Positions 31,178 through 41,260 of a stretch of 64,000 nt of DNA are shown piece by piece. Position 1 is the stretch's first letter, and each line of letters opens with the position of its first letter. Position numbers and translations under genes: made by a program. Location: positions 1 through 64,000 of the forward strand of contig JAPHSX010000013.1 of assembly GCA_026196575.1 (NCBI GenBank). The letters are read 5' to 3'. The notes under the pieces are model-generated. The model searched no databases and had not been told where the DNA came from. It worked only from the letters and a program-made list of their open reading frames with translations. This DNA is from Gammaproteobacteria bacterium. Lineage in GTDB: Bacteria > Pseudomonadota > Gammaproteobacteria > Thiohalomonadales > Thiohalomonadaceae.

Positions 31178-31759
31178 TCAGTTGAGCGGTTTGGTGAGGG
31201 TGAAGGCGCCGCGGATCTGGCCCGCTTTGTAACCACGTGCCTTGTCCTCGGGATAGAGTTCGTCGAGCTTGGCGGTGATCTTGGCATCGATGTTCTCGCC
31301 GTGACACTTGAGGCAGGGCATCTGCTCAAGCGGCGGCATACCAATCGCCTTCATAAAGCGGAAGTTTTTCTCTCCGTTCTGCTCGATCACCTCGAAGTAG
31401 GCCATCTCCGCCGGGTTCTCGCCGGCGGCGCGGCGCTCCTCGAACTTTTGCAGTACCTTCTCTTCCCAGGCGTCGGGGGCGTTCTTGCTGTTGCGGGTCT
31501 TGAGGCTGGTACGTGCCACCTTCATGCCGTGCTTCTCGGAGAGGCTCTGGGCGATGGCGGGGGCTGTTTTGTTGCAGACCTCAATGGTGGCGACCGGGCC
31601 ATCGGCCTTCATCGACTTGCCCAGCTCTCCCTTGAGCTGCTCAAAAAATTCCTTGACCACGGCCTTGCTCTCGGCGGCATATTTTTTGGCGTCATCGTCG
31701 GCAAAGCTGGCCGACAGTGGCATGGTGCATAGTAGTGCGGCACTGATTATTTTTTTCAT
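31178..31759 (-). CDS. DUF3365 (Tll0287-like) c-type heme protein
   Basis: The 193-residue protein has a signal peptide (residues 1-20), a sensor-like helical region with FFEQLKGELGKSMKADGPV and EVCNKTAPAIAQSL, and one c-type heme site CLKCH (Cys149, Cys152, His153). DUF3365 domains bind heme in sensor or electron-transfer roles; the stand-alone periplasmic form is common in sulfur and photosynthetic proteobacteria. A GGGGGAG site precedes the ATG. It stands alone, so the electron partner is unknown. Confidence 0.85.
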   Translation of the reverse strand: MKKIISAALLCTMPLSASFADDDAKKYAAESKAVVKEFFEQLKGELGKSMKADGPVATIEVCNKTAPAIAQSLSEKHGMKVARTSLKTRNSKNAPDAWEEKVLQKFEERRAAGENPAEMAYFEVIEQNGEKNFRFMKAIGMPPLEQMPCLKCHGENIDAKITAKLDELYPEDKARGYKAGQIRGAFTLTKPLN

Positions 31760-37300: not shown

Positions 37301-38566
37301 TTAGAAGGCCCAGAGTGCCTGCAGCAGGGTTTCGCTGTAGTCGTCACCGGTATCGACATCGATACTGGATTGCTCCAGCGAGAAGCGGACGTTGTCGGCG
37401 TAGTTGTAGTTCACGCCGAGGCTGGTGGTGGTGTAGTCATTGGCGCTGGCGTTGTTGTCGCTGACGTTCATCTGGCCAAGACGGATACCCCACGCGGCGG
37501 TGGGCATGATCTGCATCTCCAGCGAGGTGGCTGTCAGATCCGAGTTCACCATGGTCATGGTATCAGCCTCGTTTTTGATCTTGAATTCGTAGCCACCGAC
37601 GTTGGTGAGTAGGATCTGGGTGTTCATACCGGCGATCGCACCCTGCAGCTGCAGGTCGAAACCGTTGCTGGTCACCTCGTGATTATTTACGTTGCCATAC
37701 CAAGGCGCGGCGCTGAAGGGTACCGTAATGTTCTCGAACATCTTGGAGGTGGTGCCGGTAGTGGTGCCACTGATGCCAAAGGCGCCCACCGAGAGGTTCC
37801 AGCCCGCCATTTCCGGGGCATCGTAGGTGACGCGGTAGAGGGAGCCACTGCTGCCGTCGGTGTCCAGCCCTTTGTTGCCGTAAATGGTGTTATAGCCGAG
37901 GGTTTGCATCCCCAGCGCCACCTTCAGGCCGCTGCCGCCGTAAAAGGCGACCAGACCGGAGGAGGGACCCTTGCCCAGACCCATGCCCACTGCCTGGGCG
38001 GCATTGGTGCGGGGACTGTTGTCGAACATCGCCAGCTCCTTGTGCAGACCGGTGTTGTGGCTCTCCACCGCGATAAAGGCGCCGTGCCCCTGGGTGCCGT
38101 AGAGGGAGGCACCGATATGGCCCGCGCCGATGGGCTTGGAGTAGGTGCCCTGGAAGTGGATGAGGCCGTCGTAGTTCCAGAGGGTGTTGACCCCCATGTT
38201 CTCGGCCGCCTTGCCGCTGATCATGATGGCGCTGCCGGCGGGGACGGAGTAGGTGTCGCGGGCGCCGGTTTGGTCGGTGCTCAGGTTGTTGGCCTTGATG
38301 CCGATACCGGCATTGACTGCCAGCGGTACCGAGGTGCCGAGGTCACCGCCGGTGATCATCGACTTGTTGCCGGCGGTCATGGTGTAGCCGGAGAGTTTGA
38401 ATTGACGGCCGAAGGCGTTAAGCATCGGCAGGCTCTGGTTGTGGCAGGCGAAGCAGTTCATCTCCATCTGGCGGGCGAAGGCCGGGGTGGCCTGTGCCTC
38501 GAACGCGACCGCAGTGAGGCCGACGATGGCCGCCAGCGGGGCGAGCAGTTTTTTGGTTGGTAACAT
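37301..38566 (-). CDS. monoheme c-type cytochrome fused to an outer-membrane beta-barrel, Cyc2-like
   Basis: The 421-residue protein has a signal peptide (1-26), then TPAFARQMEMNCFACHNQ with one heme site (Cys38, Cys41, His42) and LNAFGRQFKLSGYTM, followed by about 350 residues of alternating strands ending LLQALWAF, with a terminal Phe as in outer-membrane barrels. A single N-terminal CxxCH fused to a porin with an FGRxFKLxGY segment is the design of Cyc2, the outer-membrane iron oxidase, and of related uncharacterised fusions. It would carry electrons through the outer membrane from an external donor. No other electron-transfer gene lies near it, so the donor is open. The start has AAGGAGA upstream. 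Confidence 0.72.
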   Translation of the reverse strand: MLPTKKLLAPLAAIVGLTAVAFEAQATPAFARQMEMNCFACHNQSLPMLNAFGRQFKLSGYTMTAGNKSMITGGDLGTSVPLAVNAGIGIKANNLSTDQTGARDTYSVPAGSAIMISGKAAENMGVNTLWNYDGLIHFQGTYSKPIGAGHIGASLYGTQGHGAFIAVESHNTGLHKELAMFDNSPRTNAAQAVGMGLGKGPSSGLVAFYGGSGLKVALGMQTLGYNTIYGNKGLDTDGSSGSLYRVTYDAPEMAGWNLSVGAFGISGTTTGTTSKMFENITVPFSAAPWYGNVNNHEVTSNGFDLQLQGAIAGMNTQILLTNVGGYEFKIKNEADTMTMVNSDLTATSLEMQIMPTAAWGIRLGQMNVSDNNASANDYTTTSLGVNYNYADNVRFSLEQSSIDVDTGDDYSETLLQALWAF

Positions 38567-38598
38567 TGGATACGTCTCCTTGATAGCTATTATTGGTG

Positions 38599-38626
38599 TT
38601 TATAGTTTTTTACTGGATCCAGTAAA
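38599..38626 (-). promoter_or_regulatory. promoter of the cytochrome-porin gene with an 18-bp perfect palindrome
   Basis: On the minus strand TTTACT (38626-38621) and TATAAA (38604-38599) form a -35/-10 pair with a 16-base spacer. The -35 and half the spacer are an exact palindrome TTTACTGGA/TCCAGTAAA (38609-38626). Such a site over the -35 suits repression by a dimeric regulator. The regulator is not recognised from the sequence. Confidence 0.6.
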
Positions 38627-38793
38627 CCTCCGGTGTCGTGGCGTTGCACCATGACGGTAGAGGTGGCCCTACTGTAAGGGATTACCCTATGAAAATAAAT
38701 AGCGTTCTTTGCCTCTCTGGTAAGGGGCGATAAAACCGTGGGAGCGCCTCTGGCGCGATGGGTTGGTGGTATCCGTCACCCTTTATCGCGGCA

Positions 38794-38866
38794 GAGCCGC
38801 TCCTACGAAGTTATTGCGGCCGAGCCGCTCCTACGAAGTTATTGCGGCCGAGCCGTTCCAACGAGG
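38794..38866. repeat. 28-bp tandem repeat with REP-like ends
   Basis: Two exact 28-bp units beginning GAGCCGCTCCTACGAAG stand at 38794-38821 and 38822-38849, then a partial third with two changes. Upstream, GTGGGAGCGCCTCTGGCGCGAT (from 38739) complements the AGCCGCTCC end, giving a large inverted structure of the REP type. Confidence 0.8.
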
Positions 38867-40357: not shown

Positions 40358-41260
40358 TTAGCTGTTGCGGCTCTTCTCGATCATCTCGTGGATGATGGGG
40401 GCGAGGATCAGCTCCATGGCGAAGCCCATCTTGCCGCCGGGCACCACGATGGTGTTGGGGCGCGACATGAAGGAGTCGCTGATCATGTTGAGCAGGGTAG
40501 GGAAGTCGACGCCAAACTTCTTCGGATCGCGGAAGCGGATGACGATGAAGCTCTCATCCGGGGTGGGGATATCGCGCGAGATGAAGGGGTTGGAGGTGTC
40601 GACCGTGGCCACGCGCTGGAAGTTGATGTCGGTACGCGAGAACTGCGGGGTGATGTGGTTCACGTAGTCGGGCATGCGGCGCAGGATGGTGTCGACGATC
40701 ACATCGGCGCTGTAGCCGCGCTCGGCACCGTCGCGGTGGATCTTCTGAATCCACTCCAGGTTGACGATCGGTACCACGCCGACACCCAGGTCGACATGGG
40801 CGGCGACATTGGCGTCGTCGGTCTTCACCAGTCCGTGCAGTCCCTCATAGAAGAGCACGTCGGTCTGTTCGGTGATCGCCTCCCACGGGGTGAACTGGCC
40901 CGGCTTGTAGGTGTTGCCGTCGTTAATGCGGGCGCTGTGGTGTGCCGACTCCTCATCGCTGTGGATGTAGTAGCGACGCTTGCACTGGCCACTCTCGCCA
41001 TAGGACTTGAAGGTCTCGGCGAGGATGTCGAAGTGGTTGGCCGCGGGGCCGAAGTGGCTGAAGTTGTTGTTGCCCTCCGCCTCGGCCTTGGTCACGGCCT
41101 CCTTGAAGGCGGCACGATCCAGGCTGTGGTAGCTGTCGCCCTCGACGATCAGCGGCTGGATCTTCTCGCGAACGAAGATGTGCTCAAAGGCACGCTTTAC
41201 AGTGGTGGTGCCGGCGCCAGAAGAGCCGGTGACCGCGATAACAGGGTGTTTGATAGACAT
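40358..41260 (-). CDS. prkB: phosphoribulokinase (proteobacterial class I)
   Basis: The 300-residue protein has a P-loop GSSGAGTTTVKRAF (from about residue 12), VEGDSYHSLDR, YFIHSDEESAHH-like YYIHSDEESAHH, GLHGLVKTDDANV and DTILRRMPDYV, all typical of octameric bacterial phosphoribulokinase (about 290 residues). It phosphorylates ribulose-5-phosphate to the Rubisco substrate in the Calvin cycle. Rubisco, cbbR and other cycle genes are not in this window, so the gene is separated from any cbb operon here. The start has GGAG upstream. Confidence 0.95.
   Translation of the reverse strand: MSIKHPVIAVTGSSGAGTTTVKRAFEHIFVREKIQPLIVEGDSYHSLDRAAFKEAVTKAEAEGNNNFSHFGPAANHFDILAETFKSYGESGQCKRRYYIHSDEESAHHSARINDGNTYKPGQFTPWEAITEQTDVLFYEGLHGLVKTDDANVAAHVDLGVGVVPIVNLEWIQKIHRDGAERGYSADVIVDTILRRMPDYVNHITPQFSRTDINFQRVATVDTSNPFISRDIPTPDESFIVIRFRDPKKFGVDFPTLLNMISDSFMSRPNTIVVPGGKMGFAMELILAPIIHEMIEKSRNS

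Follow-up and report, generated by a model that had tools for sequence, protein, structure and literature searches.

The gene cyc2 is used as a marker of microbial iron oxidation, and a cyc2-like gene in an organism for which we know of no Fe(II) physiology raises the question of what such a gene can say about its host. One such gene lies in the window, a 64,000-nucleotide stretch of a contig from a member of the Thiohalomonadaceae. A first-pass annotation described it as a Cyc2-like cytochrome-porin fusion lacking neighboring electron-transfer genes, through which the cell could take electrons from Fe(II), another reduced metal or a sulfur source and, together with phosphoribulokinase (PRK), feed carbon fixation. 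We therefore ask whether the product belongs to the Cyc2 superfamily and which electron donor it might serve.

The signal peptide, single CFACH, FGRQFKLSGYT and terminal phenylalanine on which that description was based are all found at 37301-38566, in an open reading frame with the following features.

37301..38566, minus strand: Cyc2-like monoheme cytochrome-porin gene, 421 amino acids (open reading frame, full-length homologs, AlphaFold2 16-stranded barrel)
38576..38581, minus strand: ribosome-binding site AAGGAG, 9 nt 5' of the ATG, read from the sequence
38489..38566, minus strand: signal peptide, residues 1-26, with cleavage at AFEAQA/TPAF (AQA/TPAF) placed by inspection only
38369..38488, minus strand: heme segment, residues 27-66 (TPAFARQMEMNCFACHNQSLPMLNAFGRQFKLSGYTMTAG), delimited by conservation and the Cyc2 signature of PMC8406198
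38441..38455, minus strand: CFACH heme-binding site, residues 38-42, from the sequence and conserved in homologs
38420..38428, minus strand: PML (PXL motif), residues 47-49, 4 residues past CFACH (spacer tabulated)
37307..38311, minus strand: 16-stranded beta-barrel, residues 86-420, from AlphaFold2 secondary structure, Foldseek and the conservation count
38609..38626, no strand: perfect 18-bp palindrome TTTACTGGATCCAGTAAA, about 43 bp 5' of the start codon, a possible operator

The frame opens with ATG and contains one CXXCH (CFACH) and GRQFKLSGYT; from the N-terminus the protein reads MLPTKKLLAPLAAIVGLTAVAFEAQA-TPAFARQMEMN-CFACH-NQSL-PML-NAFGRQFKLSGYT, and it ends in ALWAF. The A-x-A ahead of TPAFARQ is kept in 93-98% of relatives, both cysteines and the histidine of CFACH are invariant across 56 homologs, as is the core of the heme segment, and the P and L of the PXL motif are likewise invariant in the homologs. 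The gene is present as a single copy in the window's genome. An intrinsic terminator and a sigma-70 promoter were sought for it, and neither was found. The palindrome was considered as a regulon marker and dropped, its core 14-mer occurring exactly once in the genome and its matches with two mismatches being about as numerous as those of the control. Short GC-rich repeated units (GAGCCGCTCCTACGAAGTT, twice) occupy positions 38741-38850 between the gene and rimO.

Cyc2 proteins are recognized by a signal peptide, one CXXCH with AXPXFAR[Q/K][T/Y] upstream and PXL downstream, a length of at least 365 amino acids and a barrel of 16 strands similar to the porins OprP/OprO (Keffer et al. 2021, PMC8406198). 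The protein examined here has its single CXXCH near the N-terminus after a signal-peptide-like leader (assigned by inspection) and a PXL about four residues further on (CFACH-NQSL-PML), and its ATPAFARQM matches 6 of the 7 specified upstream positions, with M in place of T/Y and with spacing as in relatives. Its 421 residues include 16 long strands in the AlphaFold2 model, and OprP and OprO are among its top PDB matches. Homologs align over nearly the whole length, with E-values of 1.5e-23 among the genome's relatives and 2e-28 among named genomes, at 20-31% identity to relatives. They are Cyc2-type proteins, for the most part from Gallionellaceae and further oxidizers of iron or sulfur. Across the genome's relatives and the named genomes, where the best 80 of 341 confirmed candidate loci were retained, the sources are Gallionella, Sideroxydans, Ferrigenium, Thiobacillus-labelled bins, lucinid symbionts, Nitrospirota, Myxococcota and Gammaproteobacteria. 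Labels among the named relatives include Thiohalomonas denitrificans and Chromatiales bacterium, which would put the host probably near Thiohalomonadales. Sequence searches of Pfam, NCBIfam and the PDB returned no match, so the family was assigned through the homologs and the published definition. No close relative was found when genome contigs were scanned with the protein's own peptides or when viral contigs were scanned, and a plasmid scan gave only four weak matches, three of them annotated 'cytochrome C'.

The AlphaFold2 model (56-row alignment; mean pLDDT 74.8, pTM 0.77) consists of a short helical heme segment followed by 16 long strands spanning residues 86-420. Foldseek placed OprP (2o4v, TM 0.52) and OprO (4rjw, TM 0.46) near the top, in a range where many porins score alike and TM values are modest. 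These phosphate porins share the barrel architecture at a TM of about 0.5, but they are heme-free and have no significant sequence similarity to the protein. L050, a canonical relative of the same genus, was modeled as a yardstick and reached a pLDDT of 81.5 with similar architecture and an OprP match of its own. Because the residues immediately ahead of CXXCH are of low confidence in both models, the position of the heme segment at the barrel mouth is taken from the published model. Chance resemblance is excluded by the near full-length homologs, the heme core invariant across 56 homologs and the 16 long predicted strands. On this evidence the product is a genuine, divergent protein of the Cyc2 superfamily, predicted to be an outer-membrane porin with one built-in heme, and the description of a cytochrome-porin fusion holds. 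Grouping with non-respiratory porins, which the first-pass annotation had named as incompatible with its view, was not observed.

Placement within the superfamily was evaluated with three maximum-likelihood trees and AU constraint tests, in a sequence set containing no verified PV-1, A. ferrooxidans or Leptospirillum sequence. Each of the three trees gives the protein a solitary branch, 1.8-2.0 changes per column long, close to the base of the clade in which four residues separate CH from PxL (Gallionellaceae type) and apart from the three-residue clade, although the protein's exact position is unsure because of long-branch effects. Constraining it to the gammaproteobacterial clade that includes its own family's cyc2 was rejected (AU p 0.009), which disfavors a displaced family ortholog, long-branch effects being acknowledged here also. 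Placement inside the Gallionellaceae-type crown was rejected as well (AU p 0.027, with the caveats of the long branch and the absent PV-1 reference), and a position as sister to the three-residue-spacer clade (CHTVFPELT type) was compatible with the data (p 0.164). Since every cyc2-bearing iron oxidizer of the Gallionellaceae has a Cluster 1 copy (PMC10734462), the Gallionellaceae-type crown, in trees that hold no verified reference protein, likely corresponds to Cluster 1. The comparison with Clusters 1-3 proposed in the first-pass annotation thus puts the protein outside a Cluster 1-like crown, in a tree from which Cluster 2 and 3 references are absent. The three-residue-spacer proteins, from Ralstonia and others, may correspond to Clusters 2/3, cluster names that no verified sequence anchors in this set; they too are monoheme cytochrome-porins, and differ from the protein in spacer length and barrel insertions. 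The length of the CXXCH-to-PxL spacer (4 or 3 residues) tracks the split into the two main Cyc2 clades, which might make it a quick cluster marker. A further group of proteins with CXXCH and a barrel-like part (L011, L012, L014, L116; FARKYxxSCNTCH...PRLNxFGxxF) forms a long branch, and one of them belongs to the window's family.

Conservation is distributed very unevenly along the protein. When a position is counted as conserved if at least 80% of 55 relatives share its residue, the heme segment (to residue 66) keeps 24 of 29 such positions. Past residue 66 the barrel keeps 29 of 67 (43%) and differs at 38, a loss that misalignment at such divergence could inflate; among the relatives, the share of these barrel positions that is kept has a median of 90% and a minimum of 66%. 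Most conserved barrel charges are lost, as in E72T, R93N, D110A, E111G, E129L, K139Q, D159Q, R179A and R246V. Gallionellaceae-type Cyc2 (Gallionella, Sideroxydans, Ferrigenium) shares with the protein the signal peptide, the order AxPxFARQ-CxxCH-PxLNxFGRxFK-GYT, the four-residue CH-P spacer, the 16-stranded barrel and the single heme, and is also often stand-alone, whereas here M replaces T/Y after ARQ, the invariant G35 is E, and those barrel charges are missing. As judged from these alignments, the part that carries the heme is maintained and the one through which a donor would enter is altered. Retention of the heme segment despite a changed barrel supports a heme function and is what use of the heme would predict; the changed barrel means that an Fe(II) substrate should not be assumed and that Fe(II) oxidation is not inherited by homology.

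The location of the gene has also changed. An SspA-like GST, an aldo/keto reductase and rimO occur in conserved order in a genome of the same genus (G001) and in G002, G010, G015 and G016, and the reductase likewise adjoins rimO in G007; in the window the cyc2-like gene fills the reductase slot between GST and rimO, with the strand unchanged. The family's other cyc2 genes lie elsewhere. In G001, G017 and G018, cyc2 is paired with a gene for a diheme cytochrome c in the dtd region, close to the gene for a ccoI-like Cu-ATPase; in G001 the pair is flanked by dtd and the gene for a PEGA-like lipoprotein. The diheme cytochrome is directly 3' of cyc2 in these three genomes and in G013. In the window's genome (contig C55), dtd adjoins the PEGA-like lipoprotein gene at a distance of about 20 bp and the dtd-cyc2-cytc operon is absent. 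Because the arrangement is found in two genera, this pattern suggests that the operon was lost in the window's lineage rather than gained elsewhere. The cyc2 genes of this operon (L050 in G001, L037 in G017, L054 in G018, L017 in G013) belong to the same superfamily and taxonomic family as the gene in the window, but differ from it in locus (dtd-PEGA, as seen in G001, G017 and G018, against GST-rimO), in having a partner and in clade. The diheme gene behind cyc2, a candidate Cyc1-like partner, occupies 9333-9971 in L050, 9317-9973 in L037, 9239-9895 in L054 and 9284-9946 in L026, all gammaproteobacterial relatives. Among the inspected c-cytochrome loci of the window's genome, no full-length match to this type of diheme cytochrome exceeded about 29% identity.

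Two neighboring genes bear on electron transfer and carbon fixation.

31178-31759, minus strand: Tll0287-like (PF11845) periplasmic c-type heme protein with CLKCH near its C-terminus, the nearest such protein, 5.5 kb off
40358..41260, minus strand: phosphoribulokinase (PF00485, E 3e-66), in rimO-PRK-purD synteny

Within 5.5 kb of the cyc2-like gene there is no further gene for a CXXCH protein, so the reported lack of electron-transfer neighbors is correct over about that distance. Such isolation is ordinary for cyc2, stand-alone genes being common: a CXXCH gene is missing within 4 kb in 39 of the 67 relatives and follows immediately downstream in just 10. The proximity of PRK reflects old synteny, because the rimO-PRK-purD block is kept in relatives without cyc2 at that site, and a functional PRK-cyc2 linkage was rejected on this ground. 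The association with carbon fixation made in the first-pass annotation is supported in that the genome has both PRK and RuBisCO and could fix CO2 with imported electrons, but does not extend to a link between the two neighboring genes.

Statements on the wider genome are based on targeted searches and stretches. The RuBisCO large subunit is divided between two contig ends (L121 and L122; G000:C2 and C69), probably by an assembly break and not in a broken gene. Two COX1-family proteins are encoded, one with a ccoP-like neighbor (cbb3-type) and one NorB-like and adjoining NorC; NirS-like genes lie near the latter pair, all of these names being given by inspection. There are 27 matches to the cytochrome_CBB3 domain. 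The dsrA gene and those downstream of it follow the dsrABEFHC order typical of sulfur oxidizers (L174, G000:C27), a cluster of the reverse-Dsr type of sulfur oxidation. An Mtr/Pio conduit was tested as an alternative electron route, and no MtrB/PioB match was found in the genome. From this gene content the host is best read as an autotrophic sulfur oxidizer with a denitrification branch, and sulfur is the obvious alternative electron donor. RuBisCO, PRK, dsr, the cbb3-type oxidase, the NorBC/NirS-like genes and the c cytochromes together make it plausible that electron uptake feeds CO2 fixation.

The reading we favor, with modest confidence, is that the gene encodes an orphan, divergent member of the Cyc2 superfamily, a monoheme cytochrome-porin of the outer membrane that takes up electrons. 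The signal peptide would direct the protein to the periplasm, heme would be attached at CFACH, and the barrel would insert in the outer membrane, leaving the small heme segment at its periplasmic mouth, in keeping with the published Cyc2 model and the predicted fold. A small reduced solute, most likely dissolved Fe2+ and possibly other reduced species, would enter the barrel and reduce the heme; the electron would pass to one of many periplasmic c-type cytochromes and on to either the cbb3-type oxidase or the chain for denitrification, and reverse transport would supply the Calvin cycle with NAD(P)H. Uptake of electrons through the heme appears on balance probable, given the Cyc2 signature at the right spacing, the kept heme segment and the lack of an MtrB/PioB match; counted against it are the low identity, the barrel substitutions, the lack of an adjoining partner cytochrome, dsr as another source of electrons, and the absence of Pfam, NCBIfam or PDB sequence matches as an anchor. 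Fe(II) as the physiological donor is a more tentative proposal, less likely than not. The role is probably similar to that of Cyc2 in a sulfur-oxidizing, carbon-fixing bacterium, with a donor that cannot be deduced from sequence.

Several other explanations need to be weighed against these observations. The protein could be a true Fe(II) oxidase on a par with Cluster 1 Cyc2, making the cell an unrecognized iron oxidizer that passes electrons from Fe(II) to O2 or nitrate. Its signature and fold are shared with Cyc2, its homologs come from known iron oxidizers, and the genome holds RuBisCO, PRK, a cbb3-type oxidase and NorBC/NirS-like genes. Iron is also a conceivable donor because Ca. Siderophilus, a related groundwater lineage near Thiohalomonadales that combines cyc2, CBB and nitrate reduction, is proposed, based on cyc2, to be a nitrate-reducing iron oxidizer (PMC10993476). 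Full equivalence is nonetheless doubtful for a protein placed outside both the Gallionellaceae-type crown (p 0.027) and its own family's cyc2 clade (p 0.009), with the conserved charges of its barrel lost, the family's cyc2-diheme operon missing and dsr sulfur-oxidation genes in the genome. The Fe(II)-driven carbon fixation envisaged in the first-pass annotation is possible, yet unproven.

A repurposed Cyc2, in which heme and barrel are kept to serve a different donor (sulfur species, nitrite/NO or organic redox shuttles), to release electrons or to act as a redox-gated porin, is rather unlikely. It would account for a kept heme segment beside the most changed barrel among the relatives used (43% kept, the next lowest being 66%) in a sulfur oxidizer and denitrifier, and many Cyc2 carriers are sulfur oxidizers whose iron use is unproven (PMC12442345); against it, no substrate-specific feature was identified in the protein, and neighboring or co-occurring genes point to no donor. 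A narrower and more speculative form would see a deep Cyc2 lineage that kept its heme segment and rebuilt its barrel charges, admitting a different reduced substrate (e.g. sulfur species) and replacing the electron entry of the lost cyc2-diheme operon. Decay under relaxed selection would fit a singleton with a branch length of 1.8-2.0 changes per column and low barrel conservation, but is improbable for an intact frame of 421 codons with a good ribosome-binding site, a GC3 of 0.84 that equals that of neighboring genes and is genome-like, and a signal peptide, heme motif and 16-strand barrel all present. Least probable is an ordinary heme-free porin with a chance CXXCH: the barrel is indeed like that of general porins, but the 24 of 29 conserved Cyc2 N-terminal positions are kept in order and extend beyond CXXCH alone.

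The favored reading, that of a divergent Cyc2-superfamily protein taking up electrons, bears directly on the use of the marker. A protein with most of the Cyc2 recognition rules, a rebuilt barrel and no adjoining partner cytochrome, in a sulfur-oxidizing host, provides a good test of whether Cyc2 predicts iron oxidation or merely general outer-membrane electron transfer, and setting it beside the canonical cyc2 found in its own genus would reveal the barrel residues that set the donor.
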